NCBI RefSeq assembly: GCF_002140175.1
Contig: NZ_NGMO01000003.1
Coordinates: 392,186-428,890 of the forward strand
Direction: 5' to 3'
DNA: 36,705 bases
Origin: Candidatus Enterococcus wittei
GTDB lineage: Bacteria; Bacillota; Bacilli; Lactobacillales; Enterococcaceae
Within the stretch, counting starts at the first letter, position 1. Each line of letters starts with the position of its first letter. The translations under genes and the position numbers were made by a program. A model generated the notes under the pieces. It was not told where the DNA came from. It ran no database searches and saw only the letters and a program-made list of their open reading frames with translations. Shown here piece after piece: positions 1 to 15,519 of this stretch.

Positions 1-101
1 GTTCCTGGTGTACACCAAAATAAACTAGTAACACGCGGTTCCTGATTTGGATCAGAAACATTTTGTTTTAAGTTTAAATCAAAATCATCATATTTAGGCA
101 T
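1..101 (-). CDS. class I lanthipeptide precursor, partial (window edge)
   Basis: Second structural gene of the pair, cut off by the start of the window. The ATG at 101 follows a GAAAGGAG ribosome site. The leader begins MPKYDDFDLNLKQ, identical to its neighbour for 13 residues, and carries the FDLNL box that class I lanthipeptide dehydratases recognise. The leader ends in EPR, a NisP-like cleavage context, after residue 23. The visible core reads VTSLFWCTPGT, the ring A/ring B start known from nisin-like peptides that bind lipid II. It lies 20 bases downstream of the complete precursor gene, so the two are probably cotranscribed. The rest of the core and any lanB/T/C genes lie left of base 1. 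The family is clear; the final peptide cannot be judged from this fragment. Confidence 0.85.
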   Translation of the reverse strand, partial: MPKYDDFDLNLKQNVSDPNQEPRVTSLFWCTPG

Positions 102-121
102 TATTTTTTTCTCCTTTCATT

Positions 122-298
122 TTAAGCACACGTCCAACAAGTTTTAGTGACGCAGACGTTAGAACACAACCAATTAGTTTGTGGACAGTTGCTATTACAC
201 GTTCCTGGTGTACATGCGATAAGACTAGTCACTCTAACATTTTTTTGATTTGAACTACTTTGTTTTAGATTCAAATCAAAATCATCATATTTAGGCAT
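122..298 (-). CDS. class I lanthipeptide (lantibiotic) precursor, complete
   Basis: A 58-residue precursor of a ribosomally made antimicrobial peptide. An AAAGGAG site 8 bases ahead supports the ATG at 298 rather than the in-frame GTG at 307. The leader is residues 1-22, with the FDLNL box at 7-11 and cleavage probably after Arg22. The 36-residue core starts VTSLIACTPGTC. It has seven cysteines (core positions 7, 12, 16, 23, 27, 32, 35) and ten Ser/Thr, so up to seven thioether rings are possible. Ring B would be TPGTC rather than nisin's TPGC; streptin has the similar TPGSC. The C-terminus CWTCA is crowded with potential rings. Divergent from the LanFEG genes. Class I membership is well supported; the exact ring pattern is inference. 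Confidence 0.9.
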   Translation of the reverse strand: MPKYDDFDLNLKQSSSNQKNVRVTSLIACTPGTCNSNCPQTNWLCSNVCVTKTCWTCA

Positions 299-329
299 TT
301 TTCTCACTCCTTTATATTTTTATATCAAC

Positions 330-341
330 GTAATCGATTAC
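330..341. promoter_or_regulatory. 12-bp perfect palindrome in the lanthipeptide leader region
   Basis: GTAATCGATTAC is a perfect palindrome 31 bases upstream of the precursor start. It is just downstream (precursor strand) of a possible TATACT -10 box at about 349-354. It could be a regulator site. No consensus -35 is seen for the precursor gene, which fits activator-dependent expression. Function is inferred from position only. Confidence 0.35.
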
Positions 342-371
342 AACTATCAGTATAGATTTACAATATAAAGT

Positions 372-407
372 TTTTATAAACTATTTCTTTTTTATTTGTT
401 TATAAAA
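372..407. promoter_or_regulatory. 10-bp inverted repeat between divergent lanA and lanF
   Basis: TTTTATAAAC at 372-381 and its exact complement GTTTATAAAA at 398-407 face each other in the 166-base divergent intergenic region. It may be an operator serving both transcription units, for example for a LanR-type response regulator not in the window. AT-rich inverted repeats can arise by chance. Confidence 0.35.
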
Positions 408-464
408 GGTTTATTGTTTACTGCTAAACTAAAATAATTCAAATAAGAGAGGAGCATGTAAAAT

Positions 465-1166
465 ATGGATTTACTGTTGAAAACAGATAATTTAACAAAA
501 AAATTTAGTAAGCAAGTGGTTGTTAAATCACTCTCTATCCATGTAAAAAAGAATTCGATTTATGGTTTAGTTGGTCCCAATGGCGCTGGGAAATCCACAA
601 CTTTAAAAATGCTAACTGGTAGTTTAAAACCAACAAGTGGAAACATCTTCTTCACTAGAGAAACAAGCGATGGTCCTACGATTGGATCATTAATTGAAGA
701 TCCTGCACTATATAAGAATCTAACAGCTGAAGAGAACCTTTTAGTATTAGTAAAACTTTTCGGTTTAAAAAAGGACCGCATTAAAGAAGTTTTACATCTT
801 GTAGATTTAGAAAATACTGGAAAAAAAATCGTTGCTAGATTCTCTTTAGGAATGAAGCAACGATTAGGTATTGCAGCCGCACTGATCAGACAACCTAATC
901 TACTTATCTTAGATGAACCCACAAATGGGTTAGATCCTATTGGTATTAAGGAACTTCGAAATTTAATTAAATCATTTCCTAAACTTGGAATTACAGTTAT
1001 CGTGTCTAGTCATAATCTAAACGAAATCCAACACATGACTAATCATGTTGGTATTATGAATGCTGGTGTTTTGAAATATGAAGGGAGGATACCTGAGGGC
1101 ATTGATTTAGAAGATTTCTTTCTAGATCAAATAAATTCTGATGAGTATGGAGGAGAAGCAAAATGA
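465..1166 (+). CDS. lanF: lantibiotic immunity ABC transporter ATP-binding protein (LanF type)
   Basis: A 233-residue ABC ATPase that would energise export of the lantibiotic from the producer's own membrane. Visible motifs are Walker A GPNGAGKST near residues 37-45, the signature FSLGMKQR near 126-133, Walker B LLILDEPTNGLDP near 147-159, and an H-loop SSHNL. The size and the GPNGAGKST/SLGMKQR pattern fit the bacitracin/lantibiotic-immunity class (LanF, BcrA). A GAGGAG site precedes the ATG. The stop overlaps the start of the next gene (ATGA), so translation is coupled. Two permeases follow directly and two lanthipeptide precursors diverge upstream, which makes immunity the likely role rather than general drug export. 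Confidence 0.85.
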   Translation: MDLLLKTDNLTKKFSKQVVVKSLSIHVKKNSIYGLVGPNGAGKSTTLKMLTGSLKPTSGNIFFTRETSDGPTIGSLIEDPALYKNLTAEENLLVLVKLFGLKKDRIKEVLHLVDLENTGKKIVARFSLGMKQRLGIAAALIRQPNLLILDEPTNGLDPIGIKELRNLIKSFPKLGITVIVSSHNLNEIQHMTNHVGIMNAGVLKYEGRIPEGIDLEDFFLDQINSDEYGGEAK

Positions 1167-1909
1167 AAAATTATATAATGGCGGAATACATTAAAGGGAA
1201 ACGATCTTTCAGTCATTTTTTCTTTATGTGGCTTCCACTGATTGTCGTCCTCATCTGTATTCCATTTTCTCAGTTTATGTATTTTGATATCAATTTTTTT
1301 GTTCCCCTTATTTATAACTGGTGGCCAACACTTTTCTTGCCTACGGGATTGGCAGTTTTAGGGTATCAGTCCATACAGAGAGAAAAAGAAAGTCACACTC
1401 AGAACTATTATTATTTATTGAGCCAAAATACATTTTGGAAAACAAAATTGATTACATTAGCTGGATACTCATTGATAGCTAACAGTTTGATTGCTCTTTT
1501 GACCATCCTTTTTGAATTCATCATGTATGATGCATCAACTATCATCATTATGAATGTATTATCAGCATCACTGGTTCTTTGGATTACAACATTATTTATT
1601 ATTCCACTTTCGATTTTATTGGCACAGTTGCTCACACCAATCATTTCTATTGTTGTAAATCTTTTTGGTATGATGGTAGGCATTTTTACGGTTGCAGGAA
1701 GTTACTGGTATATCAGTCCTTGGGGATGGTCATTACGCTTGATTACACCTATCATTAAGACAAACCCTAATGGCACATTACTCCAAGAAAATGATCCATT
1801 AAACACACCTTCCATCGTCTACCCTGGGCTTGGCCTGGCACTTTCTATTTTCATTATTCTCTTTGTTAGTGTGCCATTCATTTTATCAAGAACTAGGGAG
1901 AGTGATTAG
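1163..1909 (+). CDS. lanE: lantibiotic immunity ABC permease (LanE type)
   Basis: A 248-residue membrane protein with about six hydrophobic segments: near residues 20-42, 50-66, 95-118, 128-152, 157-178 and 222-243. This is the ABC-2 architecture of LanE/MutE immunity permeases. It follows the ATPase with a four-base ATGA overlap and has a GGAGGAG ribosome site inside the upstream gene. Position and topology carry the assignment, since these permeases have few conserved residues. It would pair with the next permease as a heterodimer in the cytoplasmic membrane. Confidence 0.8.
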   Translation: MKNYIMAEYIKGKRSFSHFFFMWLPLIVVLICIPFSQFMYFDINFFVPLIYNWWPTLFLPTGLAVLGYQSIQREKESHTQNYYYLLSQNTFWKTKLITLAGYSLIANSLIALLTILFEFIMYDASTIIIMNVLSASLVLWITTLFIIPLSILLAQLLTPIISIVVNLFGMMVGIFTVAGSYWYISPWGWSLRLITPIIKTNPNGTLLQENDPLNTPSIVYPGLGLALSIFIILFVSVPFILSRTRESD

Positions 1910-1911
1910 CG

Positions 1912-2652
1912 ATGTCTTTTTCTTTTAGTGCGGAGTGGCTTAAAACAAAAAAATCACTATTCAGAACAACTTTATATGGTTCTCCAATTGTGTTTAATTT
2001 ATTGATTTTTGGATACATCATTTTCGCTAATCAAAAAGTATCCGAAAGTAACTTTTATTTTAATTATTTCTCAATCCTCAATTTTTTATTACCATTTACT
2101 GTAAGTTTCATACTTGCATTGATGAATAATTGTGAACGAGAAGCTGGAAACTTCAAAAATATTTTTGGGTTAAATCGTCACTACTATTTTTTATTATCTC
2201 AAAAATTCATTTTTTCATATTTAGTGATTAGTTTTGTCTTCCTATTTAATTTATTATTGACAATTGCGTTACTTAAATTTACCTTCAACGTACCTACCAC
2301 AAGTTTCAACTCTCATTTTTTATACGGTTCTACTTTCATATGGTTAGCTTTTATGACGTCATTTGTCCTATACTTTTTTCTGAGTATCATTTGTAGCTTT
2401 ATCACAACACTTTTCATTGGATTAGCCTCCTCACTATTAACAGCTATTCTAGGCTTAACAGCTTTAGGCAATGGAATTTGGCAATTCTTTCCATTCACAT
2501 GGGGAAGCCGTGTGATTCCAATGCTTATGAACAATTCCTCCTTAGTTGGATTTTTTTATGAACACACCTATTTTAGCTATGTTCTTTTGTTCTGCCCCTT
2601 CATTTGTTTTTTTGTATCCCTAATTATCTCTGTCTCTTTATTTAGAAAATAA
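1912..2652 (+). CDS. lanG: lantibiotic immunity ABC permease (LanG type)
   Basis: A 246-residue protein with about six membrane segments and very hydrophobic composition, starting two bases after the previous stop with a GGGAGAG site upstream. It is the third gene of a LanFEG-type trio. A segment near residues 70-90 (NCEREAGNFKNIF) resembles the cytoplasmic loop E-x-G-x-F-x-N seen in LanE/LanG and MutG permeases. No LanI-type immunity lipoprotein is visible downstream; a decayed insertion sequence follows instead. Which permease is E and which is G is by gene order only. Confidence 0.8.
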   Translation: MSFSFSAEWLKTKKSLFRTTLYGSPIVFNLLIFGYIIFANQKVSESNFYFNYFSILNFLLPFTVSFILALMNNCEREAGNFKNIFGLNRHYYFLLSQKFIFSYLVISFVFLFNLLLTIALLKFTFNVPTTSFNSHFLYGSTFIWLAFMTSFVLYFFLSIICSFITTLFIGLASSLLTAILGLTALGNGIWQFFPFTWGSRVIPMLMNNSSLVGFFYEHTYFSYVLLFCPFICFFVSLIISVSLFRK

Positions 2653-2741
2653 TCAAAGAAAAAAGACTTTTATTCCCACCTTTAAATTTAATGAACCCAC
2701 AAGAAAACTATCAACTAGTATGGGGTAGTTTTTGAGACTCT

Positions 2742-3170
2742 ATGCTTTTTGATGTCGGTGATTTTCACCAACAGTTTTTTTATTTGAAAAAACAGAATAG
2801 ACACCTTAAATACTTTGGAACTAAATATCTAGTTTTTGGAAAACTGTTCAACAAAAAAGTACCAAGCTCAAATCGCCTAAAACTAACTGAAATAGTTGAG
2901 CGCCTTCTCAGTGATTGTCCTAAGCTATGCTCTGGTTGTCAACTAACATTACTTTTTGCAGTAAAAATGTGAGATTGAACCGTTTGGCAGTATAAAACAG
3001 CACATTCTGAGGCCTATGATATGCCCTTGGAAATTTTCTTCACACTCTCTTCGTTAACTCAAATATTACAGTTGTTTGAATAAACCTATCTAGGGATTAT
3101 AACAAAATGTTTCTGGTTTCCGAACCTTTTAGAGTTTTAAATGACGGATAATCATTCGACATGGAAAAGT
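2742..3170 (+). pseudogene. decayed ISL3-like transposase, C-terminal remnant
   Basis: An open stretch at 2742-2972 reads like the middle of ISL3-family transposases, including RLKLTEIVERLLSDCPKL. After several stops, about 3095-3160 still reads QNVSGFRTF-stop-SFK-stop-RI. This mirrors the family's C-terminal motif of the type KRNAFGFRNFDNFKKRI. At least three in-frame stops show that the gene is dead. The 5' half is missing: lanG ends only 90 bases upstream. The match is from memory of the family, not a search; the C-terminal motif is the strongest part. Confidence 0.5.
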
Positions 3171-3190
3171 GTTACCCATGAAATAAAAAA

Positions 3191-3225
3191 TGAATGGAGA
3201 GAAACTGTCGTTTTCTTTCCATTCA
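3191..3225. repeat. imperfect hairpin within the IS remnant
   Basis: TGAATGGAGAGAAAC and GTTTTCTTTCCATTCA form a stem with one mismatch and one bulge around a 4-base loop. It lies between the decayed transposase and the putative terminal repeat. It could be the transposase terminator. Confidence 0.35.
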
Positions 3226-3251
3226 CCAATGATTCTAAAATTTTCCTCGTT

Positions 3252-3269
3252 AGTATCGGACAAAGAACC
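3252..3269. mobile_element. putative right terminal inverted repeat of the ISL3-like remnant
   Basis: On the minus strand this reads GGTTCTTTGTCCGATACT. It resembles ISL3-family ends, which typically begin GGYTCTTTGTC. It is placed as expected about 100 bases beyond the transposase C-terminus. No matching left end was found near 2653-2741, so the element is truncated on the lanG side. Confidence 0.45.
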
Positions 3270-3290
3270 AAAAAAGTCTAACTTTTTTGG
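3268..3290. repeat. perfect 10-bp stem, 3-base loop
   Basis: CCAAAAAAGT-CTA-ACTTTTTTGG. It directly abuts the putative IS end. On the minus strand the T run is inside the stem, so it is a poor rho-independent terminator, although it lies 240 bases beyond jetD. No gene is visible in 3291-3527. Confidence 0.4.
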
Positions 3291-3527
3291 GTGCCTACAT
3301 ATCCGAGCATTTTAACAGTATTAACTCTTGTCTATTATCTATTACAGCAGCTGAATCATTTAATAAATCGACAAAAATAGGAATCATAATCGTTGATATT
3401 TATTTTATGTTGTTACTTATTTCTACAAAATTTCCTTATTAAAACTTTTCCTTACGTGGCTCAATAATAAATAAGTAATCAACGACTTTCTAGGTATTTT
3501 CAACTTATAATTTCTTTTTTTATTAGG

Positions 3528-4718
3528 TCAATGAAGAGAAATGATTTCTTGTTCCAATTTAATATTCTTTTCTAACATTATTTCAAATACTTCTAATGGC
3601 TGTTTCTGGTATAAAATTTTCAATCTTCTATGATCATTTGTACTTAATTTTTTTCCGTAACTTTGATATTTTAATAACGTATCTTTATCCATAGCTAAAG
3701 TTTGAAAAGGAATACCTGTCATTTCCTTTAAATGAAAAAAGATTTCAAAACCGCCTACATCAATATCACCAAAATGCAAATAATGCTTCGTAGGAAATTG
3801 ACGATAGATTAACTTTAAAAATTCTCTTCTGATTCGATTATGAAAGCCACCTAGATAAAGGACTAATTGATTATTCGGTATAAAATCATGAAATGAGGTT
3901 AAATTTTCTATGGTTATCACTTGCTTGCTTAACAACTCTTTAAGCTCGATTTTGGGAACCATTTCTGGAGACAAACCTATCGCACCATCATCTTCTCTGA
4001 GAGCTATAATTGATTGCCCGACACTAAAAGTCACATTTCCTTTCAAATAAATAAAACTGGGATTTTTAGCGATATTGAAATACTCTAGTAATTCTTTTGA
4101 TTCAAGTAATGGGACAGAATCATCTACTTGTTGAATGAATTGTATGATCCTATTTTGCATTGATGAAAATTTTTTTGTATCAGAAAAAATTTGTTGAGAA
4201 AATCGCCGTATCGAGATTTCCTCCTCTTGATTATACAGAGCCACCAAAGTATCAAACAGCTCTTTCAATTCCTTAACACTCTCTGTTGGAACATATTTTT
4301 TTATTGAATATTTAGTTTTCAATTGCTGATCAATAAACAAGCAATATGGTTTGATGATTGGATGTTGTTCTTGATATTGCCAACAAAAAGAAAGTAACTC
4401 TTTTCTTTTTTTATTTGGTTCTTCTTTACCCAAATAACGATAAATCTCCACTAGTTTATCCAGATTCAAGAAAATTTGTGTCGTATATTGTTCTTCAGTC
4501 TTCAGTCGGATCCATTCTTCACTGACCAATTGAGCAAATAACGCATTATATTCCTCAAATCGTTGGTAAAAGTTTACTGTATCAAAATAGGTACCGTCAT
4601 ATTTTTTGATAGATAGTGCTATTTGCAATTCTCGATTCGAACCTTTTCTAGATAACACACTTTTTTCATATTTATCAATTAAAGCTTCTACTAATACTTT
4701 TTTAGCTATCTTTTTCAT
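3528..4718 (-). CDS. jetD: Wadjet anti-plasmid protein JetD (TOPRIM-like nuclease subunit)
   Basis: 396 residues. It is the subunit of Wadjet that cleaves circular plasmid DNA after loop extrusion by JetABC. Its N-terminal part matches DUF3322 in style and its C-terminal part DUF2220. The TOPRIM-like core is visible: a glutamate in TIEN near residue 271, then HFGDIDVGG with GDID at about 317-320, giving the metal-binding acidic set. I chose the ATG at 4718 because a GGAG site lies 8 bases ahead and the protein then starts MKKIAKKVLVEAL; the reading frame is open further up to 4820, inside jetC. It overlaps jetC by 17 bases. Last gene of the operon; no convincing terminator directly follows. 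Confidence 0.9.
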   Translation of the reverse strand: MKKIAKKVLVEALIDKYEKSVLSRKGSNRELQIALSIKKYDGTYFDTVNFYQRFEEYNALFAQLVSEEWIRLKTEEQYTTQIFLNLDKLVEIYRYLGKEEPNKKRKELLSFCWQYQEQHPIIKPYCLFIDQQLKTKYSIKKYVPTESVKELKELFDTLVALYNQEEEISIRRFSQQIFSDTKKFSSMQNRIIQFIQQVDDSVPLLESKELLEYFNIAKNPSFIYLKGNVTFSVGQSIIALREDDGAIGLSPEMVPKIELKELLSKQVITIENLTSFHDFIPNNQLVLYLGGFHNRIRREFLKLIYRQFPTKHYLHFGDIDVGGFEIFFHLKEMTGIPFQTLAMDKDTLLKYQSYGKKLSTNDHRRLKILYQKQPLEVFEIMLEKNIKLEQEIISLH

Positions 4719-7700
4719 GACATAACTCCACTGCAAATGATTGATTTCCTTTTCTGATGACACCAACCGTAGTCTGTACGTATGGTAAAATAGTAGACAA
4801 GCGATTCGGTGGTACAACAATGATGATTTGAATGTTTAAATTGTTATAAAATTTCATCATCGCTTTTATTCGAGCCTCATCCATATTATTAAAAGCTTCA
4901 TCAAATAACACCACGCAACCTGCCTCTACAATATTCAGCTTGTGTAACATCTGTTCAAAACAAGAAGCAATGGTGACATAAAAAGGTGTTTGTGTTTCCC
5001 CTCCTGAGTTTTCCTTAATAACATTTGATAGTTTAGTGATGTCTCCATTTTCATTGGTTACAATGATATCATAAGACATATAATTACGATAATCCGTATA
5101 TTTTCTAAGTTCGCGCTCATCTTTTCTTTCATCGTCAAAGTAGGCTAATTTATCGAACAACGTTTCCATCAAATCACGTTCATGATCCATAAGTCCATCT
5201 AAAAATAAATTGTCCATATATAAAGCATTATTTCCCGTAACAATCTCATAATACTGTTTAAAAGCCGGATCAGAATTAGCTTCATAAACAAATTTATAGG
5301 TGTCTCCATTAAAGCTTTGTTGCTCTAATCCTTTATTGAGTTCCTTGATGCTTTTCTTTGCTTTATTGATATTATCTGAGAGCTTTGCAACAAAGCTCTC
5401 GTTAAATGCTTTTTCGCTTTTTTCTTTTGCTAAATTAAGACTGTCTTTAGTACGAATAATGTCGATTTCATTTAATTGATTAAATTTATCTAGATATTGT
5501 TGGATATTGTCTAAAGAATTTCCATATCCAAGTTTTGTTCGATTGTTGAATTTAATCATACTATCTTTTAACCATACTACTTTATCTTCATTGTCACGTC
5601 TTATTTTTAACTGTTTTGCTTGAATGATTTTACTCGTTTCGTTCAGAGCATTTTTATTCTCAGCTAAAACTTTTTTTAATTCTAACTGTGCTTTTTCAAA
5701 AGTGTCGATGTCTTGTATGCTACAAGTTTCCTTAACTTTAGAAAATAACTTAAGTTGTTCATTTACACTAGCTAAATCTCTTTCAGACTGTTCAATTTCC
5801 TTTTTATAACCCCCTTTTTGTTCTTTTAGTTCGTTAACATCAAGTTCATAACTATGTACAACAGATTTCAAATTTTCTAATGCTTCAATTTTAGAAAAAA
5901 GTTCATCTTTTTCTTTAAAGGTAGAGAGAAAATCTTCTAAAGAGGCTTTGCTCTCTAGAGAAATCCAATAATTTTCTAACTGTTCATCCAACCTTTTTAA
6001 TTCAGTAGGCTTGATTCTTTCAAGAGATGAAAATAATCTATTTGTTTCTGTTCTTTGGCTTTCTATCCTTTGCTTCTCTTCTCTTAATGCAATTAAAACT
6101 TTCCTTTCATTTTTCAATTGCGTTTCAAATGCTTGTTGACCTATATAAGGCTTGTTGTAAACTTTAGGATGAATCGCATAGACAGAATATTGATTGTAAG
6201 TCATACATTCTTTGGTGATCGCTACTTTATGATTCCTTAAACATACTACTTCATCTACACACTTTACTCGTCCAAGTAAAAAGTTGATGTATCCTTGTGC
6301 AAATTGGTTTTTACATTGTAATTGCTTTGCTAACGTACCCTCTTCTGCAGAAAATTCTTTAGTTTTACTTACATCAACTACACGTACACCAAATATTTTT
6401 TCTTTTTGAGTATATTCCTTATAAAATTCCATTGCTTTGAGGAAATATTTTGGTTCGACAATCAAATTAAAACGATTTTTCCCTAAAAATCCTTCTGCTG
6501 CATTCCGCCAAGATTCATCATGCATTTCTAACAACTCACACAATGGCTTCACTTCGATGGGTTCTTCATAAAAATTTTTTAACTCTCTTGTCAAAATCTC
6601 TTGTAGCTTTTTAGTTTCATCTGGATACTTGAATTGGCGTTTTTCAAGTGAACGAATCAAATTCGTACTTTCCTTAATTTTCAGATTTAAGTCATTCATG
6701 CGCGATTCAAATTGGAACAGTTCTTTCCTGTATTGCTCTTTTACTTTATGTAATCCTTTTGAGAATTCTTCTAAATGACCGATTCTTTTTTCTTGAGCTG
6801 ACTCTTTAGAGGTAAGTAGCTTTACATCCAATAATAAATTGACAGGCTTCAAATAAAGATTCGCTTCTTTCAATAACGAGAGATACTTTTTATAACCAGT
6901 TTCTCTTTGCTCCACTTCTAACCTTAAGCGGTCTAATTCTCTTTCAGTATCCCTAATTACTTGTAAATCATGGTCATGTTCAAGTTGAAACTTTTTTTCT
7001 TGGTTTTCTTTTAAATATTGTTCTTTGATTGGTAACTGTTCGTCAATTTGTTTCAATTGACGCTTTTTCTTGGTGATTTCTTCTATGTTTTTGCTCTGTT
7101 TCTTGATAAGAAATTTTTCTTTTAATAACTCTTCCATCCTATTTGCAATGTTTAATTGTCTATTTCCTTCTTCAATTTCATAATAACAATTTCTAATTTG
7201 TGTTAATTCATTTAAACTTTTTTCTTCTTCTACCAACTTTTGATTAATCGAACGATAACTACGGATATTTTCTCTTAGTGTATCGATGTCGACAGGTTCA
7301 TCATCTAATAAAAATTGAAATATAAACTTATTTAAGTCTTCAACAGGTTTAAACGCTAATGCTTTTGGTACTAACTCCATATACTTTGATTTAACCCCCA
7401 GTGCAGTGGTAAACATGATATTTTTTTGCGTAGCTCTACTTGGAATATCTATCTGGATCTGTTGATTTTTAAAATACGCACGAAAAGCGACCATATCTCT
7501 AACGTTCTTGTTATCAACAAACCACTCTTCTTGAAGGGCTGAATTAATTTTGTAAAAATGGGCTCTTGGTTGTTGATGTTTTTCAGCTTCAATAACAGCA
7601 CCTAAAACAAAATAAGAAGTCATATCACTACCAGTTTGAAACTCCAACGCTACATGAGCAACAACAAAGTCCTCTCGCAAAAATTTTTTTCCTTCAACGC

Positions 7701-7923
7701 CTAACTTTCCTCGCACATAGCCTTCCAAAGTTCGTGTACTACGTTCATTAGCAGCCATATTAAATTTTGCTTTACCCGCAGTCAAAATAAATTGGATTGC
7801 ATCAAGAACGGTTGATTTTCCACTCTTATTATCCCCAGACATTAAAACATTATCTTTGATTTGTATCGTTTGATTCTTGAACATGTGCCAGTTAATCAAT
7901 TTGATCTTCGTCAGTTTCTTCAT
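4702..7923 (-). CDS. jetC: Wadjet anti-plasmid protein JetC (SMC-like ATPase)
   Basis: 1073 residues with SMC/MukB-like layout: an N-terminal ATPase half with Walker A GDNKSGKST at residues 30-38, long charged coiled-coil stretches (roughly 210-430 and 600-870) with a central hinge region, and a C-terminal half with signature SGGETQ and Walker B CVVLFDEAFNNMD. It is the motor that extrudes plasmid DNA. The ATG at 7923 has an AGAGG site 9 bases ahead; the frame is open to 7947. It overlaps jetB by 32 bases and jetD by 17, as expected for a coupled complex. Both catalytic halves are intact, so the ATPase should be active. Confidence 0.93.
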   Translation of the reverse strand: MKKLTKIKLINWHMFKNQTIQIKDNVLMSGDNKSGKSTVLDAIQFILTAGKAKFNMAANERSTRTLEGYVRGKLGVEGKKFLREDFVVAHVALEFQTGSDMTSYFVLGAVIEAEKHQQPRAHFYKINSALQEEWFVDNKNVRDMVAFRAYFKNQQIQIDIPSRATQKNIMFTTALGVKSKYMELVPKALAFKPVEDLNKFIFQFLLDDEPVDIDTLRENIRSYRSINQKLVEEEKSLNELTQIRNCYYEIEEGNRQLNIANRMEELLKEKFLIKKQSKNIEEITKKKRQLKQIDEQLPIKEQYLKENQEKKFQLEHDHDLQVIRDTERELDRLRLEVEQRETGYKKYLSLLKEANLYLKPVNLLLDVKLLTSKESAQEKRIGHLEEFSKGLHKVKEQYRKELFQFESRMNDLNLKIKESTNLIRSLEKRQFKYPDETKKLQEILTRELKNFYEEPIEVKPLCELLEMHDESWRNAAEGFLGKNRFNLIVEPKYFLKAMEFYKEYTQKEKIFGVRVVDVSKTKEFSAEEGTLAKQLQCKNQFAQGYINFLLGRVKCVDEVVCLRNHKVAITKECMTYNQYSVYAIHPKVYNKPYIGQQAFETQLKNERKVLIALREEKQRIESQRTETNRLFSSLERIKPTELKRLDEQLENYWISLESKASLEDFLSTFKEKDELFSKIEALENLKSVVHSYELDVNELKEQKGGYKKEIEQSERDLASVNEQLKLFSKVKETCSIQDIDTFEKAQLELKKVLAENKNALNETSKIIQAKQLKIRRDNEDKVVWLKDSMIKFNNRTKLGYGNSLDNIQQYLDKFNQLNEIDIIRTKDSLNLAKEKSEKAFNESFVAKLSDNINKAKKSIKELNKGLEQQSFNGDTYKFVYEANSDPAFKQYYEIVTGNNALYMDNLFLDGLMDHERDLMETLFDKLAYFDDERKDERELRKYTDYRNYMSYDIIVTNENGDITKLSNVIKENSGGETQTPFYVTIASCFEQMLHKLNIVEAGCVVLFDEAFNNMDEARIKAMMKFYNNLNIQIIIVVPPNRLSTILPYVQTTVGVIRKGNQSFAVELCHEKDS

Positions 7924-8536
7924 CAACTCGTTCCTCTTTTCGTTCATACTTCTGAATTTGTTGCTCTACTTCTTCTAACGTTTCTGTGGATACGACATAA
8001 ATAATCGCTGGTTGAATAATGATAACAGTTTCTAAATCAGCTAAGTCCCCAGAATAGTCACATAAATTATGCCGTTTAAATAATTGAATAATTTGTTTGA
8101 ACTCTGTCTTCGGGATAACATTTTCAAATAAGCCTGTGACTAGCAATTCTTGATAAATTTCTTCTGCCGTGGTAACTATTTTATTCATAGATGAGATTTC
8201 ATGTTGTCGTTTAAAATAGATTTTTCTAAGAATCAACAATGCAATCGTTTGAATTTTCGTGAGATTTAATCGATTCAAAGAATTTGCTGGGTACAGTCCG
8301 ATCACACCAAGAGTTTTATCGAAAATCATTTCATAATTTAATATTGAAAAGTAATTCTCGAACATTTTCTGATTTGGAAGAATGGCGTAATAATTTTTTT
8401 TATCTTTCTCGTGATCTCTACAAATAAAATTATGATTCAATAGACGACTGGCTAACATTGCAAATTGTTCTTGCTCTTTTTCTTCCAAATGACGATAGGC
8501 TAAATAAAAATGCTGACTATTTCCTGCTAAATTCAT
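7892..8536 (-). CDS. jetB: Wadjet anti-plasmid protein JetB (DUF4194, MukE-like)
   Basis: 214 residues, mostly helical winged-helix style, with a strongly acidic C-terminal tail (EEVEQQ...EERVDEETDED). Size, position between jetA and jetC, and the segment NRLNLTKIQTIALLILRKIYF fit the DUF4194 JetB family, the counterpart of MukE/ScpB that bridges kleisin and ATPase. The start overlaps the jetA stop as ATGA. Identification leans on the operon as well as on the sequence. Confidence 0.88.
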   Translation of the reverse strand: MNLAGNSQHFYLAYRHLEEKEQEQFAMLASRLLNHNFICRDHEKDKKNYYAILPNQKMFENYFSILNYEMIFDKTLGVIGLYPANSLNRLNLTKIQTIALLILRKIYFKRQHEISSMNKIVTTAEEIYQELLVTGLFENVIPKTEFKQIIQLFKRHNLCDYSGDLADLETVIIIQPAIIYVVSTETLEEVEQQIQKYERKEERVDEETDEDQID

Positions 8537-9867
8537 GTCTTCCTCCTAATGACATAATCTCTAAAAACGGTATCTTCCTGCGAAAACTCCTTGTCTAGAT
8601 CTTCTACGGTATAGCTAGCTTCATAAGAAAAAGCATAAATATAAATGAGAACATAATATGCTTTATTATTTAAAACATATTCTGAAACACAAATTTCAGA
8701 ATTTTCTTCCAGTAGATCAGTAACAAATTTTTCTATATTCACCTGTGAAAACTCACTAGATTGCATTAATGTCTCTTGAAAAATACTCTTTTCATCCTCT
8801 GTTAATTTCAACGGATGACCAATATTACTTTCCCCAAGTATTCTCTTTCTTCTAGGTGTCGCCAATGAATATGGATCCATTAATTTTACTTGGCTTAGAA
8901 ATAACGTTTCAAAATAATAATCTATCTGACTTATTTTGCGAATCAACATGTTGATACTTCCTTCAATATCCTCTGTTTCACTTAGTAAAAAGCTGATTCG
9001 ATTAATTGCTGAAGAAATAAACCGCTGATTCTTATCGTTTATTTCCTTCAAAATATCATCGACGGATTCAAATTGTTCTTTGATGAAAACTAATTTTTCA
9101 TACAATTCATGATAAATTTCAATATAGTCTTTTTTGGTTGTAACCATTAACCTTTCAGCAATCTCTTCTAATAATTCATCATCCAGTAGCCAATTAATTG
9201 CGTCAATAATCTTCCCTTTATACTTATTTGGATGATCATTTGTCATTAGGTGGTAGTATGCCTTATCTACCACGTTGAGTTGGTATTCATTCGCTAATAA
9301 TAAAAATAATTGGTTGAGATCATCTTTTATTCCATCGTCTAAAATCTTTTGTATGTATTTTTTGATACTTGTGTTCAATTGCTTTAATTGAGAAAAAAAT
9401 TCTTTTGTTTGATGATAAGCTGATTCAATACTTAATTCTTCACGTCTATCAGAATTAAAATTTTCAAATAACTTATAGATTGTATAAACGTTCCTCGAAT
9501 AAGATAGTTCCGAACCTTGTTTAAAATTGTATAAAAATTCTAAAAAAGAGTAGCCAATATCACTCAATAAGATAATCACTTGGTAATTCGCATTGCGATC
9601 CTCACTCAGCCAGCCAGTATTTTTAAATCTACTTAAAAAAGCCAATGCACGTTCTCTTGAAGTTTGTTTTTTATCTTCAAACAAATTGACTCTCTCTGAA
9701 AAATAGTTTTCAAATATTGAAATGACTTCATTCTTCGTTAGTGTATGTTCTAATTTTTCATTGACTTGTTTGTATAACAAAAGTAAACAATCACTATATT
9801 CCTCTTTATTTTCACCACTCAATACATTAAAAAAATTTGCTGGAACTACTTCGAATATGCTTTTCAT
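8533..9867 (-). CDS. jetA: Wadjet anti-plasmid protein JetA (kleisin-like)
   Basis: 444 residues from the ATG at 9867, preceded by a GGGAGGG ribosome site. The frame stays open to a GTG at 9966, but no ribosome site supports that. The N-terminus MKSIFEVVPANFFNVL followed by a predicted winged-helix and helical region resembles the JetA/DUF5716 form, not the DUF3375 form; that subtype call is from memory. JetA is the kleisin-like subunit that links the JetC heads with JetB. First gene of jetABCD, with four-base overlap to jetB. No consensus promoter is obvious; a hairpin with T run lies 147 bases upstream (10014-10034). Confidence 0.85.
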   Translation of the reverse strand: MKSIFEVVPANFFNVLSGENKEEYSDCLLLLYKQVNEKLEHTLTKNEVISIFENYFSERVNLFEDKKQTSRERALAFLSRFKNTGWLSEDRNANYQVIILLSDIGYSFLEFLYNFKQGSELSYSRNVYTIYKLFENFNSDRREELSIESAYHQTKEFFSQLKQLNTSIKKYIQKILDDGIKDDLNQLFLLLANEYQLNVVDKAYYHLMTNDHPNKYKGKIIDAINWLLDDELLEEIAERLMVTTKKDYIEIYHELYEKLVFIKEQFESVDDILKEINDKNQRFISSAINRISFLLSETEDIEGSINMLIRKISQIDYYFETLFLSQVKLMDPYSLATPRRKRILGESNIGHPLKLTEDEKSIFQETLMQSSEFSQVNIEKFVTDLLEENSEICVSEYVLNNKAYYVLIYIYAFSYEASYTVEDLDKEFSQEDTVFRDYVIRRKT

Positions 9868-10007
9868 ATACCCTCCCTCGCACAAAAATAAAGCGCTATC
9901 ATTTTCCGTTAAGTTATCAAAGCTTAGTACACTAATATTTAGAAATTTAGACATACTACTGTACACCTAAAATCATATCACAATTTATAAAAATATTTCT
10001 AAAAAAC

Positions 10008-10034
10008 ATAAAAATATGGAAGAAATTTCCATAT
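10008..10034 (-). terminator. hairpin with T-rich tail upstream of jetA
   Basis: On the minus strand ATATGGAA-ATTTC-TTCCATAT is followed by TTTTATGTTTTTT. It could terminate transcripts from the decayed gene upstream, or attenuate read-through into jetABCD. The bases from 10035 to 10256 show no gene. Confidence 0.45.
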
Positions 10035-10256
10035 ACTCTTTTCTGTCTTGCTCATATTTTCCCTTTCCACTAAGAGACACACACTAATCATAGATATTAC
10101 AGATTATATGGTATTTTTCTCCAATCGTTATTTTAAGCAAAAAATTGCTCTTACTATCCAAATATTGATTTTGTAAGTTTGCTTTCCTTAAACAGGCTAA
10201 AATATTTATTTTTTGATAGATTAATTCAAAAATCATAAGGAACAACATCATTGTAC

Positions 10257-10733
10257 TTATTTCCTGAAACTAACTATCGATAAAACAAGTGCAATAATGA
10301 TGTTGATTAAAGAAACCTTACTCACTAAAGGAAGGAATATACCCCAGACTGCCAGGGATACTACTCCTGCTTACCCGAAAATCGCAAGAGCAAATTTTTT
10401 ACTATTGATACACTTCTCCCTATGATTGAAGTTTGGACCTGTTAAAAAATCTTTTACATAGGTTTTACTATTTTCAGATTCTGGGATATGATTAAAATAA
10501 AATGTACACAACAAAAAAATCAGTTGACCGATATCAAACCAATAGGATTCTGCCTGGTTTCTTGATATTAATACTTCAATAATGAAGAAAACGAGTACAA
10601 AACATGCCATTTTCAATGATGAATAACATGCAAAAAGTATTTTTTATGTATTTCTGAAAGGTCTTTTAGAATAATGCTTGATGAAAGAAGCATTCTTTAC
10701 TAGTCGATAACGAAGTTTGACTACCTCAGACAT
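10257..10733 (-). pseudogene. decayed small membrane protein gene with two in-frame stops
   Basis: From an ATG at 10733 (GGAG 12 bases ahead, loose) one reading frame of 159 codons runs to a stop at 10257. It is interrupted only by TAA codons at 10644-10646 (codon 30) and 10371-10373 (codon 121). The translation starts MSEVVKLRYRLVKNASF, has two hydrophobic segments after the first stop (ACFVLVFFIIEVLI and FDIGQLIFLLCTFYF), a soluble stretch GPNFNHREKCINSKKF, then two more after the second stop (VSLAVWGIFLPLV and NIIIALVLSIVSF). Membrane pattern continuing across both stops in one frame argues for nonsense mutations in a former four-segment membrane protein. Family not recognised. Confidence 0.55.
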
Positions 10734-10970
10734 GGTTCAACATCACTCCTATCAATAAAAATATTTAATTTATAGCATAAAAAGTACTAGCAGCGCATAA
10801 CAGCTTCTTTTTTTCACACATTTCAAACATCATCTTCTTAAATAAATCAATTTGGGAAGCAATGAAAGGAATCTAGATATACAAACAATTTTAATCTGTA
10901 GACGAAATTTTAAGTAATAAACATAAACATTTTTTGATATTTTTTTCTAAAAATGAAAGGAAGTAACCTA

Positions 10971-11348
10971 ATGGACAAAACAACCTATAGAACAGCCAAT
11001 GAAGGTAGTAAAAAGGTATATATAAATAAAAAAATAATGATTTTTGACATTATTTTTAGCTTCATCACAAATGAACCTATACTTCAGACACAATTTCTAC
11101 ACAGAAAACTAGAGTTACTGATGAAGGAAAAGGGCATGAATATTGATATCGAAACCTATAGCTCAAATAAAATAGATCAATATGGGGGACAAGCTGATCT
11201 TATATTATTAACCCCTGTATTTGGACATGCTAAAGAAGAATTTGAAAAAAAATTCCCTGAAACACCAGTCATAGCTATTTCCAAACAGGACTATGGTTTG
11301 TTAAATATGGAATCATTGTATAACGGAATAATAGACTTATTAAAATAA
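10971..11348 (+). CDS. stand-alone PTS EIIB-like protein (lactose/cellobiose type) without the active-site Cys
   Basis: 125 residues from the ATG at 10971, which has an AAAGGAAG site 7 bases ahead. The second half follows the lactose/cellobiose IIB fold: DLILLTPVFGHAKEEFEKKF, then PVIAISKQDYGLLNMESLYNGIIDLL, matching the family pattern VVLLGPQ...IPVAVIDPRDYGMMNGEKVL. The first beta strand, where IIB proteins carry the phosphorylated cysteine, reads MIFDIIFSFITNEP, and there is no Cys anywhere in the protein. It therefore cannot carry out normal phosphotransfer. It may be a regulatory relic or a decaying gene. No IIA, IIC or sugar genes adjoin it. Confidence 0.6.
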   Translation: MDKTTYRTANEGSKKVYINKKIMIFDIIFSFITNEPILQTQFLHRKLELLMKEKGMNIDIETYSSNKIDQYGGQADLILLTPVFGHAKEEFEKKFPETPVIAISKQDYGLLNMESLYNGIIDLLK

Positions 11349-11441
11349 GACTGCTAAAACATCCATATGCACTATTACTAAAAGACAAAGATTTAATGCA
11401 TAGCTCCTCAGCTTTTATTCGACCTATGTATATGTATCCTG

Positions 11442-11650
11442 TTACTCTTCTTTTGTGTTTGCTGAAAAGCCAAAACTAAATACACTAATAGCAAATCCTA
11501 ACATGATGGAGAATAATTTATGTTTTTATAGCTTATCCTTCCTGACTCATTGATTTTATAGTATCATTCCTCACCCACTATAGAAATCGTTTTCTTAAAA
11601 GAGTAGTTAATATGTCAGGTTTAAATAGTTTCTTTGTGTTTAACTGTCAT
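11442..11650 (-). pseudogene. possible decayed short gene
   Basis: A very strong GGAGGAGGG site precedes an ATG at 11650, but that frame (MTVKHKETI) stops after nine codons. Downstream in shifted frames are WVRNDTIKSMSQEG and then KHKLFSIMLGFAISVFSFGFSANTKEE-like text ending at 11442, which looks like a membrane segment with a polar tail. This suggests a short gene broken by frameshifts. The evidence is weak. Confidence 0.3.
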
Positions 11651-11777
11651 TTAAATTCCCTCCTCCAAACAAAAGTTTACTTTATAATAATGAATTTATA
11701 ATTTTCAGTAATTTTCTATTACATTTACTGATAATCTATTTACCTATGAAACATTATATTCACGATGTATAATCGGC

Positions 11778-11936
11778 TCAGTATTCGCTATCCTTCACTT
11801 CAAAGGCCACAAATCTTAACGGGAAGACGGTAAAACGAAAAGGAATAGGCAGTTTTTCCTGACTATGACTCTGCGTGTTTAGGGTGAACATCACATGCAC
11901 TAACCTGTTACCTTCACTATAACTTGGATGTAACTT
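11778..11936 (-). other. open fragment of unknown origin
   Basis: A 52-codon stretch without its own start reads HVMFTLNTQSHSQEKL...FVAFEVKDSEY. Its beta-rich style recalls DUF4352/DUF5067 lipoprotein domains such as the fragment at 13527-13817, but I cannot confirm a relation. Nothing else is recognised in 11349-11974. Confidence 0.2.
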
Positions 11937-11974
11937 TTAAGGAAATGAGTCAACATACTTTGTAAATGATTGAT

Positions 11975-12301
11975 TTAGTAAGCATTTTCTATAGTGAATA
12001 TTGGATTAGCTATTTTGAGTATGCGATCACCTTTATTAATATATTTGAAGTATTTTTTTACATAATAGTCATCATGAAGCGAGCTTTTTTTCATCAGATT
12101 TAATCGTAATTTTTCTTTTTCCAAAATTGTTAGATGATGCATAGAATCAATTTGGTTATTGATTGCATTTCTAAGCAACACGCTTTCCTCGTCTTCATAG
12201 CTATTTTTTAGCCCATGTCCAAATAATTTAAGGATGGAGATTTTTATTAATCCATTCTTTCTAGAATCATATGAAGAATCCTGACTGGAAAATTCATCCA
12301 A
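11975..12301 (-). CDS. hypothetical protein, possibly a fragment
   Basis: A 108-codon frame starting MDEFSSQDSSYDSRKNG. From KISILKLFGHGLK onward it is lysine- and leucine-rich, predicted helical, and ends KIANPIFTIENAY. No ribosome site precedes the first ATG, and this start overlaps the broken AbiEi-like gene in another frame. It may be the 3' part of a different gene fused by deletion to the AbiEi remnant. Family not recognised. Confidence 0.35.
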   Translation of the reverse strand: MDEFSSQDSSYDSRKNGLIKISILKLFGHGLKNSYEDEESVLLRNAINNQIDSMHHLTILEKEKLRLNLMKKSSLHDDYYVKKYFKYINKGDRILKIANPIFTIENAY

Positions 12302-12590
12302 ACAGTATAAGGAAATTTATCTGTAAGGTCGTGTATATATAGTGCTGTTTCATTAGAATAAATCCCTTTAGGCAAAATCATCTGACGTACCAGAAATCAT
12401 CTACATAACTGTTCGTCCTAATATAAACGCCATAATATACTTCTTCAAGAACCCCGCCTTTTATCAAATCGTTAATAAAATCTTTTGAAATATCTTTCTT
12501 CAAAAAATCTTCATTAGTGAAAATAATATCCGACTTAATCAAGTTTTCTGCTTGCTTCAACTGTTCCTTTTGTACTTCAAAGAACTCCAT
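12256..12590 (-). pseudogene. broken AbiEi-type (type IV antitoxin) transcriptional regulator
   Basis: The N-terminal 70 codons from the ATG at 12590 (AAGGTGAAAG site) form the AbiEi winged helix: FTNEDFLKKDISKDFINDLI followed by GVLEEVYYGVYI and DDFWYV. A one-base deletion near 12390 shifts the frame; the next frame continues MILPKGIYSNETALYIHDLT, exactly the AbiEi continuation seen as YPKGIYSHETALYLHGLT in the family. The text then loses similarity after MNFP and stops near 12256. The C-terminal half needed to neutralise the AbiEii toxin is missing, and no AbiEii gene is visible. A dead remnant of an abortive-infection toxin-antitoxin system. Confidence 0.65.
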
Positions 12591-12605
12591 ACTTTCACCT
12601 TCTTT

Positions 12606-12632
12606 TTCTTAGTAAATTAAAATTACTAAGAA
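12606..12632. promoter_or_regulatory. 10-bp inverted repeat at the AbiEi-like gene: candidate operator
   Basis: TTCTTAGTAA-ATTAAAA-TTACTAAGAA is a perfect 10-bp inverted repeat just upstream of the ribosome site of the AbiEi-like gene. AbiEi-family antitoxins are known to repress their own promoter by binding inverted repeats, so this is a natural operator candidate. The function is inferred from position. Confidence 0.5.
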
Positions 12633-12639
12633 GAATATG

Positions 12640-13255
12640 GATAGTTCTTATATAAAAAGCGCAAAAGAAAAAGGCTTACGCCCTTCATCAAAAAACTATG
12701 CGGAGTATTTCTCTCTACGCCATGTGATTGCAATGTTGTTCGGTCACACATTCTACAATACCGTACCAGTCGGAGCGACCGCTGGCATATTGCAGCCTTA
12801 CGAGATGTGGTCAGGCATGACAGCCTACAAATTTCACAGGGGCATTCGGTATATTAGAGTATCATCCTTTAATTTACCGCCTACTGCTACTCTCACGCGT
12901 TTCTTGTCTTATAGATTATTTCTAATCACTTCACGGCGAAGGACTTCTTTGGATGTTTCCGTCAGTGCTAAATGCCAATCCCTTAGCAATTCTCTTTACG
13001 GAGGGGCTAAGTCTTATCAACCTAGCTTTCTATTGTCGTCTCGACAAGTTCGCTACCTTACATTTGGTCACACTTTGCACACGTTCTTTGCGCTCCAATG
13101 CTTTTACACTGGCTTTCCCCTTGTTACCAAGAATACTCACTTGATACGCAACAGTATCCCATTACGACACCAACAACGACTTATTACCAAACGTTCCTTG
13201 ACGAGTTGCTTAAACTCTCATACACAAGGTTCTGCATCAGTTTTTTGATAAAAAG
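12640..13255. other. GC-richer block, probably non-coding, origin unknown
   Basis: About 600 bases visibly richer in G and C than their surroundings, with sharp edges. The plus strand is open for 203 codons from 12637, and shorter frames overlap it. The translation is Ser/Thr/Leu/Phe/Arg-rich without domain character and lacks a ribosome site, so I do not call it a gene. All minus frames have frequent stops, though one holds ILGNKGKASVKALERKERVQ-like text. It may be the non-coding or decayed part of a mobile element, or a structured RNA. I could not place it. Confidence 0.3.
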
Positions 13256-13526
13256 AATAAACTTTTTATCATTTTTCAGGGAGTTTATTATCCCATATAT
13301 CAAAATAAATTGCAAACGGATTCTTAAATAATATTTGACTTATTTATTAATGATTCTTCAATCTTTCAATACGCTATGCACGGAAAACTTGTGTCACAAG
13401 ATCCAAATGACTAGTGTTTCAAGCAGACCAACTTTATTTTCTTCAGCCATTCTTCCAATTTCCTCATTTTCATTTTCAAAAATCACAAAAATGATATTAA
13501 CTTGAAAGTCACTAATAAAATAAGCC

Positions 13527-13817
13527 TTACAAAGTAAAGGGTAATCCAACAAAATAACCATTCGCTCTACGTACTACGTTTTGGTAATCCTGCATTTCAC
13601 TCGGTAATTGGTAATAGTAATTTATCGTCTTTACATTGCCACTTTCAATATACTCTGGACTGTCTAATATCATAGCATACTCATAAAGTTCTTCACCATC
13701 CTTATTTTCAATCGACCATTGTTGCGGACGTATCGGATTTTCTGTATCATTTTTCAATGTATAGGTCACTTGTAATACACGATCATGCTGTGCAAATTCA
13801 TTTCTTTTTTCGGTCAA
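13527..13817 (-). pseudogene. C-terminal fragment of a DUF5067/DUF4352-like surface lipoprotein
   Basis: The frame is open from TTG at 13817 but is not preceded by a ribosome site or a signal peptide; a stop lies only five codons further upstream. The text RVLQVTYTLKNDTENPIRPQQW and GEELYEYAMILDSPEY, then VKTINYYYQLP and VVRRANGYFVGLPFTL, has the beta-sandwich pattern of DUF5067/DUF4352 lipoproteins (tether, then V-x-V-x-x-T-x-x-N). The N-terminal lipobox and linker are missing, so this is a 5'-truncated remnant. The family call is moderate. The bases 13256-13526 show only short open traces; 13818-14077 show no gene. Confidence 0.5.
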
Positions 13818-14077
13818 TTCAAAATTTCAGATGATGATACTTATGAAAAAATAGTTCCCAGTATTAAACTAAAAGCGATAGTGGGGCTAAAATTTTGATG
13901 TTAGTTTAGAAAAAGTGAATAATATTTCTCATACATTAACATAAACTAAAAGGATGAAATACAAGAACTAGAAATACTCTTTATAGGTATTTTTTCAATA
14001 ATATTAAAATTCAAAAAACTTACATCATTGAAACATCTAAAACACAAATGACTATAAAATCACTTTTAAGGCAATAT

Positions 14078-14113
14078 AAAAAACTTCAAATGCTGTTTTA
14101 TCAACATTTGAAG
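14078..14113 (-). terminator. rho-independent terminator of the suf operon
   Basis: On the minus strand CTTCAAATG, a 12-base loop, CATTTGAAG and then TTTTTTAT, placed 15 bases after the sufB stop. Confidence 0.85.
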
Positions 14114-14127
14114 CTCGTACTATATGA

Positions 14128-15519
14128 TTATCCCACTGACCCTTCCATCTCATAACTGATCAATCGGTTTAATTCTACTGCGTATTCCATTGGTAATTCT
14201 TTGGTGAATGGTTCAACGAATCCCATGACGATCATTTCAGTCGCTTCAGATTCGGTCAAGCCTCGGCTCATAAGGTAATAAAGTTGTTCTTCAGAGATTT
14301 TTGAGACTTTTGCTTCGTGTTCCAAAGAGACTTGGCTGTTGTGGATCTCGTTGAATGGGATCGTATCGGATTTTGAGAGTTCATCCATGATGATCGTGTC
14401 ACATTCAATATGGGAGATCGATCCAGCACTCTTTTTGCCAAATGTGACTTGGCCACGATAGTTTACTTCCCCGCCGTCTTTTGAGATGGATTTTGAGACG
14501 ATCGAGCTAGAAGTGTTTGGTGCATTATGGATCATTTTTGCACCAGTATCTTGGATTTGATTCGCACCGGCAAATGCGATAGAAAGCATCGTGCCACGAG
14601 CGCCTTTTCCGTCCAAGTACACACTTGGATATTTCATCGTTGTTTTTGCGCCTAAGTTTCCATCGATCCATTCGACCGTTGCCCCTTCGTAGGCTTTTGC
14701 TCGTTTGGTGACGAGATTGTAGACATTGTCTGACCAGTTTTGGATCGTTGTATAGCGGCAGTAAGCATCTTTTCTCGTAAAGATTTCTACGATAGCTGCA
14801 TGTAGACTGTTGCTTGAATAGGTTGGTGCTGTACAGCCTTCTACATAATGGATGCTTGCACCTTCGTCAACGATGATCAACGTCCGTTCAAATTGTCCAG
14901 TGTTCTCCGCATTGATCCGGAAATACGTTTGTAATGGGACATCGACTTTGACTCCTTTTGGTACATAGATGAACGTACCACCTGACCATACCGCAGAGTT
15001 TAATGCGGCTAATTTATTGTCAGTTGGAGGTACAAGTTTGGAGAAATATTCTTTGAACAATTCAGGGTATTCTTTAAGTGCAGAATCCGTATCTGTAAAG
15101 ACGATCCCTAATTTTTCAAATTCATCTTTCATATTGTGGTATACGACTTCTGATTCGTATTGGGCAGAAGCACCGGCTAAATACGCACGTTCCGCTTCTG
15201 GTATCCCGATCCGTTCAAAGGTTTCTTTGATTTTATCTGGTACATCATCCCAGTCACGAGCTGGTCCGTCACTTGGTCTTTGATAATATTTGATCGCATT
15301 GAAATCGATGTCTGACAAATCAGGGCCCCAAGTTGGCATCGACATCTTATGGAATGTTTCTAGAGATTTCAATCGAAATTCTAACATCCATTCTGGTTCG
15401 TCTTTGATTCTAGACATTTCACGAACAACTTCTTCAGTCAAGCCTTCACCTGTACTAAAAACAGGTTCTACATCATCGTGAAAGCCAAATTTATATTCTT
15501 CTAATTCTGGTACACCCAT
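14128..15519 (-). CDS. sufB: Fe-S cluster assembly scaffold protein SufB
   Basis: 463 residues from the ATG at 15519 (GAGGAG site; the frame is open to 15546). SufB with SufC and SufD forms the SufBC2D scaffold on which Fe-S clusters are built in the cytosol. Recognisable Gram-positive SufB blocks are [69 protein letters not shown] and the conserved end [23 protein letters not shown]. The beta-helix core spans roughly residues 130-400. Last gene of sufCDSUB; the start lies just past the sufU stop, with five bases separating stop and ATG. Length is normal for the family. Confidence 0.97.

Follow-up and report, generated by a model that had tools for sequence, protein, structure and literature searches.

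A class I lanthipeptide gene cluster reaches into the left end of the DNA stretch that we analysed (36,705 nucleotides, G000:C3:392186-428890, G000 being the source genome; hereafter the window). On sequence grounds, this cluster is of a kind that encodes two different nisin-related peptides, LanA1 and LanA2. Its machinery is ordinary. What is unusual is that two diverged cores with a TPGTC motif are kept together, and that two of their predicted rings overlap. The genes lanA1-lanA2-lanB-lanT-lanC-lanR-lanK follow each other on one strand, with lanFEG divergent from them. The features are listed in Table 1, where positions outside the window refer to L005 (G000:C3:376000-392800).

Table 1. Features of the lanthipeptide cluster
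Feature	Position	Strand	Remarks
lanA2, first 33 codons	window 3..101	-	truncated by the 100-N gap that precedes base 1; copy 2 in the assembly
lanA1, complete precursor of 58 aa	window 122..298	-	36-residue core, 7 Cys, 10 Ser/Thr, ends CWTCA; identical copy at L005:15706-15882
Putative divergent promoter region, lanA1/lanF	window 299..464		166 bases; conserved in four loci
12-bp perfect palindrome, GTAATCGATTAC	window 330..341		GTAACCGGTTAC in two relatives; possible operator
TATACT, possible -10 box of the lanA promoter	window 349..354	-	conserved
lanF, immunity ABC transporter ATPase	window 465..1166	+	TIGR03740, 307.2 bits, just under the cut-off of 309.75
lanE, immunity ABC transporter permease	window 1163..1909	+	TIGR03732, 166.6 bits, above the cut-off of 145.2
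lanG, immunity ABC transporter permease	window 1912..2652	+	TIGR03733, 93.4 bits, under the cut-off of 117.2
lanA2, complete gene	L005:15500-15685	-	outside the window
lanB, two pieces	L005:15122-15448 and 12213-14849	-	left of the window; both Lant_dehydr domains found, split over the pieces
lanT	L005:10466-12235	-	Pfam matches without a peptidase domain
lanC	L005:9136-10557	-	PF05147
lanR	L005:8427-9131	-	
lanK	L005:7061-8455	-	

The two precursors

Both precursors are encoded on the minus strand and share the leader start MPKYDDFDLNLKQ as well as a VTS...CTPG core start, as stated in the preliminary description. The size, composition and C-terminal cluster of the LanA1 core given there are also right (Table 1). 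The core of LanA2 starts with VTSLFWCTPG. Its full sequence, VTSLFWCTPGTCNNTCKGGSTLKSNCCVGSILCSLGGC, is taken from the copy left of the window and has 38 residues with 7 Cys and 10 Ser/Thr. The LanA1 and LanA2 cores are 47% identical. For lanA1, an ATG at position 298, eight bases 3′ of an AAAGGAG sequence, is more likely to be the start codon than the GTG at 307 used in the ORF list.

Both precursors pass the NF038155 model (30.9 and 23.2 bits for a cut-off of 20). LanA2 also passes the gallidermin/nisin model TIGR03731 (32.8 bits vs a cut-off of 29.3) and PF02052 (22.2 vs 21). LanA1 stays below the TIGR03731 cut-off (24.8 vs 29.3 bits) and has no Pfam match; with TIGR03731, its counterpart from Thermotalea scores 42.2. 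Overall, the family models and the surrounding lanB, lanT, lanC, lanR, lanK and lanFEG genes support the initial assignment to class I lanthipeptides with a nisin-type start, the position of LanA1 with respect to TIGR03731 being as just given.

A duplicated stretch at the edge of the window

The pair had been described as one complete and one partial gene. There are indeed two different precursors, but the partial gene is due to a scaffold gap and the second precursor is complete in the left copy. Base 1 of the window comes directly after a run of 100 N (L005:16087-16186), and window positions 1-341 are repeated exactly at G000:C3:391584-391924, 602 bases leftward. Palindromic stretches of Nextera mosaic ends (three full, one partial) lie inside lanB and between both lanA copies. 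A 30-bp segment that repeats part of lanR exactly, lanR itself lying about 7.5 kb away, is located between one of these stretches and the gap. Because of the exact copy, the Nextera remnants and the 100-N gap, the second copy of the lanA pair is most likely an assembly artefact, and a single lanA1-lanA2 pair is what the organism most probably carries. Two natural pairs in tandem were rejected, the second copy being exact over 341 bp and surrounded by adaptor remnants and the gap.

In the whole 3.37-Mb assembly, exact mosaic ends were counted 97 times in the forward and 109 times in the reverse orientation, as compared to 0 and 0 for the reversed pattern; none was found within the window. They are seen at L005:15031-16186 and genome-wide, often as head-to-head palindromes. 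These counts indicate that adaptor-joined read pieces were kept in the assembly. Since 206 exact mosaic ends were left unremoved, other gene breaks or duplications in the source genome are doubtful. More generally, unremoved sequencing adaptors can be the cause of an unexpected number of genes at the edge of a window.

Could the lanA pair itself result from a duplicated assembly? The assembly does repeat this stretch, and it contains adaptor sequence in abundance. However, the signs of an artefact concern the second copy only, and LanA1 and LanA2 are different genes, with cores sharing 47% identity, that stand next to each other in four other assemblies. With these four genomes, such an origin of the pair is in effect refuted and retains next to no likelihood.

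Biosynthesis, export, regulation and immunity genes

The place to look for the remaining lan genes, according to the preliminary description, was left of base 1. There, lanB (in two pieces), lanT, lanC, lanR and lanK are present, but no subtilase-type lanP was found in the genome. With lanB and lanC lying left of the window, absence of lanBC is rejected. Searching the source genome for Peptidase_S8 gave no match, and no candidate maturation protease for the peptides was identified; the same search gave matches in seven of 14 named control genomes, Lactococcus lactis among them. A subtilase LanP inside or outside the cluster was rejected on this basis (0/1 genome). Instead of a LanM synthetase, which is usual but not strictly defining for two-peptide lantibiotics, the cluster has LanB and LanC. 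One lanR and one lanK were recognised as regulator and kinase. Among the ORFs inspected, neither lanI nor lanD was recognised. On the divergent strand, LanF is 78-86% identical to LanF of three relatives and LanG 62-79% identical to their LanG.

LanC aligns with its best solved-structure match, 8byk, and with NisC, including the CYG and CHG motifs, which presumably hold the zinc ligands. The intact single-ORF LanB of a Streptococcaceae MAG (L038) aligns with its own best match, 9g04, and with NisB over most of its length. We take 8byk and 9g04 to be the maddinglicin enzymes MadC and MadB.

In the source genome, the lanB break sits at adaptor-bearing repeats, and we read it as an adaptor artefact. 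A cluster that is silent or broken in the source strain, with lanB truly interrupted, is very unlikely. Such a defect would agree with the split of lanB, seen here as two pieces and in Facklamia miroungae as two ORFs of 483 and 510 aa (L039:10431-13510). However, the break falls at the repeats in a genome with 206 exact mosaic ends, and LanB is an unbroken ORF of 1020, 1022 and 1082 aa in three relatives (L038, L040 and L041).

Related loci

LanA1 is encoded in one of the 15 genomes of the genus, the source genome. At the order level, a two-row profile search (E ≤ 0.001) matched 6 of 395 genomes, namely the source genome, F. miroungae (G256), Vagococcus fessus (G112), G235, G249 and G042. G235 and G249 carry tandem nisin-like CTPGC genes; G042 gave a weak profile match and no clear lanA under the filter used. 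Scanning the genome collection yielded six loci, four of them with TPGTC cores: the Streptococcaceae MAG (L038), F. miroungae (L039), V. fessus (L040) and Thermotalea metallivorans (L041). In the two others, from Clostridioides difficile (L042) and Staphylococcus americanisciuri (L043), the match is confined to 17-20 residues of the leader.

Class-level and phylum-level searches matched 6/398 and 2/398 genomes, the source genome included, with no TPGTC core among the other readable loci. Judged by eye, these other loci resemble those of gallidermin, geobacillin, subtilin or nisin; no clear lanA came out of L049 with the filter used. In the plasmid collection, each precursor had one partial match, with less than 60% identity, in Priestia aryabhattai. 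The viral contigs gave 143 pattern stretches and no relative. Tandem arrays of nearly identical precursor genes were also encountered, nisin-like in L021 (G235, 7 genes) and L022 (G249, 4 genes) and gallidermin-like in L045 (G547, 4 genes).

The two precursors are conserved together

In all five TPGTC loci found (the source locus and four others), lanA1 is followed by lanA2 at a distance of 20-49 bp. With both precursors held by 5/5 loci, the initial suggestion of either a two-peptide product or two variants becomes better founded. In the following, the source genome, the Streptococcaceae MAG, F. miroungae and V. fessus are referred to as the four closer hosts, Thermotalea being considered apart. 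Between the four closer hosts, the A1 cores are 86-92% identical and the A2 cores 79-92% (gaps left out), as compared to 42-52% between A1 and A2 within one host, in all five hosts. Calculated for six host pairs each (NG86), dN/dS ranges from 0.069 to 0.229 for A1 and from 0.088 to 0.193 for A2, single values being rough with such short genes. The ratios indicate purifying selection on lanA1 as well as lanA2 among the four closer hosts, across which all Cys are kept in both. Because the pair recurs in four other genera and dN/dS is well below 1 in the four closer hosts, we consider it to be more than chance. Other lanA arrays from the same searches mostly repeat one core (4/4 genes in G547, 6/7 in G235 and 3/4 in G249, the last two each having one shorter gene besides the repeated core).

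The two Thermotalea leaders share 82% identity with one another and 43-65% with the leaders of the other hosts. The cores are 58-67% identical to like-named cores elsewhere and 52% to each other. Leaders tracking the enzymes and cores tracking the type is what would be expected if both products matter. The split between A1 and A2 types is nevertheless not clean in Thermotalea: its A1 core has an A2-like middle and 8 Cys, and aligns with the other A1 cores only with gaps. All leaders of the four closer loci (8/8) end in Arg and both Thermotalea leaders end in Asn.

The conservation data bear on the idea that one peptide is the antibiotic, whereas the other signals to LanRK, acts as a decoy or is an inactive by-product. 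Such a division has parallels, since nisin-type systems are autoinduced through LanRK (accessible part of PMC8308785) and the fourth precursor of nisin O is of unknown role and processing (accessible part of PMC11811420). However, in the four closer hosts every Cys is conserved in either gene, with comparably low dN/dS values for the two. We regard a single antibiotic accompanied by a second peptide of this sort as improbable.

Upstream of lanA1, the divergent region carries TTTATAAA boxes and the TATACT hexamer in all four closer loci. The palindrome stands 5′ of the ribosome-binding site. A paired base change between hosts, from GTAATCGATTAC to GTAACCGGTTAC, keeps its symmetry, and the palindrome may be an operator.

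Predicted rings

In order to pair the cysteines, ring A (Ser3-Cys7) and ring B (Thr8-Cys12) were fixed and donors were accepted at 3-7 residues ahead of each Cys. The minimum of 3 comes from the rule given in the accessible part of PMC11251773, which also places seven bridges within the known range, with geobacillin I and elgicin; the upper bound of 7 residues is our own choice. Under this rule, every core can pair all of its cysteines and the four closer A1 cores have exactly one solution. CTPGT is at the same place in 10/10 cores, and in each of them Thr11 is the only in-range donor for Cys16. Ser14 in A1 of the source genome and of V. fessus, two residues before Cys16, falls outside the allowed range, and Thr15 of A2 directly precedes Cys16. 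The prediction is that ring C starts inside ring B in all ten cores, although Cys16 may also be left free. Calculated monoisotopic masses of the unmodified A1 and A2 cores are 3821.65 and 3813.68 for the source genome, and 3835.70 and 3823.66 for V. fessus CCUG 41755; with 7 to 10 waters lost, the A1 and A2 cores of the source genome would come to 3695.57-3641.54 and 3687.60-3633.57. TPGTC may thus be more than a larger ring B, its Thr supplying the only in-range donor for the third cysteine. A ring starting inside ring B would bear on lipid II binding by nisin-type peptides.

Comparison with known lantibiotics

As far as the literature and sequence collections searched go, the peptides do not correspond to a named lantibiotic, which agrees with the preliminary description. 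No described lantibiotic matching the cores was found in this material. Within the same literature, "lantibiotic" combined with "CTPGTC" gave no paper, and the papers containing "CTPGT" were unrelated by title.

Streptin from Streptococcus pyogenes is a class I lantibiotic with a CTPGSC start, hence with a ring B of the same size as here; it differs in being a shorter single peptide with fewer rings. LanA2 resembles gallidermin and epidermin in that it passes the gallidermin/nisin models and contains an NCC stretch recalling the gallidermin tail. It differs from them by a longer core with two more Cys after CC, and no lanD was recognised in the present cluster. The ericin cores are subtilin-like and are not known to have a TPGTC motif. 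The ericin cluster of Bacillus subtilis A1/3 shares with ours two different lantibiotic-like peptides in one class I cluster; the title of the ericin paper, as cited in the accessible part of PMC3091789, suggests peptides acting each on its own.

According to the available part of PMC9889658, maddinglicin (Clostridium maddingley), the cluster of which has no LanI, and geobacillin I are also class I peptides with a nisin-like start and seven cysteines. Both differ from the present peptides by having one precursor per cluster, as far as described there, CTPGC vs CTPGTC, and another C-terminal half. Nisin O from Blautia obeum A2-162 is a class I nisin relative with several precursors and no clustered protease, the leader of which was removed by trypsin in the test tube (available part of PMC11811420). 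It has four precursors and two regulator/kinase systems, whereas two precursors and one lanRK are found here.

Class II two-peptide lantibiotics, such as lacticin 3147 and vagococcin T, resemble the present system by their two co-encoded precursors. They differ by their LanM enzymes, vagococcin T of V. fluvialis being a type II (LanM) lantibiotic (accessible part of PMC9431498), and, in those studied, only the alpha peptide binds lipid II (accessible parts of PMC9431498 and PMC7268733). This trait of two-peptide lantibiotics, a lipid II-binding motif in only one peptide, is not found here, CTPGT being present in 10/10 cores. Neither the present family nor a synergistic class I pair is described in the accessible parts of PMC7268733, PMC9431498, PMC6165006, PMC11251773, PMC12328550, PMC10134562, PMC11811420, PMC3091789, PMC6509333, PMC8308785 and PMC9889658.

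Proposed mode of action

On balance, we lean towards a class I cluster that makes two peptides with one enzyme set, the peptides having a complementary action on the same targets. Of this reading, the gene set, the two precursors, their co-occurrence and the purifying selection are seen in the sequences themselves. We infer that LanB, guided by the FDLN-box leaders, which are alike, would dehydrate Ser/Thr residues in the two precursors, and that LanC would close the rings. LanT, devoid of a peptidase domain, would export the modified precursors. Leader removal would then fall to a protease from another family than S8 that does not belong to the cluster, perhaps a trypsin-like enzyme present in the habitat. 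The Arg leader ends of the four closer loci fit this reading, the Asn ends in Thermotalea do not. In both peptides, rings A and B would bind the lipid II pyrophosphate as in nisin, and the different C-terminal halves would give rise to complementary action on the same target cells. LanFEG would protect the producer and LanRK would induce the genes.

Two-peptide synergy is plausible. In its strict form, one core would dock on lipid II, the other would join it to form a pore or a block, and each peptide would be weak alone. The adjacency of two diverged cores in 5/5 TPGTC loci, the purifying selection on both genes in the four closer hosts and the repetition of one core in most other lanA arrays all speak for such a class I two-peptide lantibiotic. 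However, both cores have the same CTPGT start, whereas in the studied two-component lanthipeptides alpha binds lipid II and beta differs (accessible part of PMC7268733), and the synergistic pairs in the accessible parts of the literature consulted are class II. This strict form is possible, though we hold it to be rather unlikely. A related and tentative proposal, which we would not expect to be correct, is that class I enzymes produce a two-peptide lantibiotic with synergy between its members, each of which would grip lipid II by an interlocked ring B/ring C clasp (Thr8-Cys12 with Thr11-Cys16) enabled by TPGTC.

If both peptides are made, the family would offer seven-ring nisin relatives with an altered lipid II-binding end. 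V. fessus, a cultured species with the whole cluster, is a place to ask whether class I enzymes make synergistic pairs.

Probable horizontal transfer and neighbouring genes

For the enzymes, regulators and immunity proteins of the cluster, identity amounts to 79-87% with F. miroungae and to 62-79% with V. fessus. The two chromosomal proteins tried rank these hosts in the opposite order (SufB, 69% for F. miroungae and 88% for V. fessus; FtsW, 54% and 68%). This opposite ranking, and the fact that none of the 14 other genomes of the genus has LanA1, point to acquisition of the cluster by horizontal transfer. In the congener G007, only a 203-aa gene and the suf genes are common with the source stretch downstream of sufB, and the boundaries of the transferred segment were not located.

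The lan cluster lies downstream of the suf operon in F. miroungae, about 3.5 kb from sufB (L039:4174-7646), and in the source genome, about 11.5 kb from it (window 2652-14128). In V. fessus, sufB is on another contig than the lan cluster. The region downstream of the suf operon is perhaps a shared variable site.

Related proteins of 205/206 aa with a signal-like start are encoded after lanK in F. miroungae (L039:18676-19293) and V. fessus (L040:18685-19305). They have no Pfam match, and the Facklamia one has no NCBIfam match; a search of the source genome, run without a positive control, gave no counterpart of the Vagococcus protein. An accessory or immunity factor is possible. The C. difficile contig carries a short ORF (L042:2700-2972) that begins like a leader, MPKYDDFNLDLNK, and continues into a different core containing three Cys; it may encode a further lanthipeptide precursor. 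Finally, a Wadjet-type four-gene defence operon adjoins lanG (window 3528-9966, minus strand), with JetA, JetB, JetC and JetD each matching PADLOC type 1 models.
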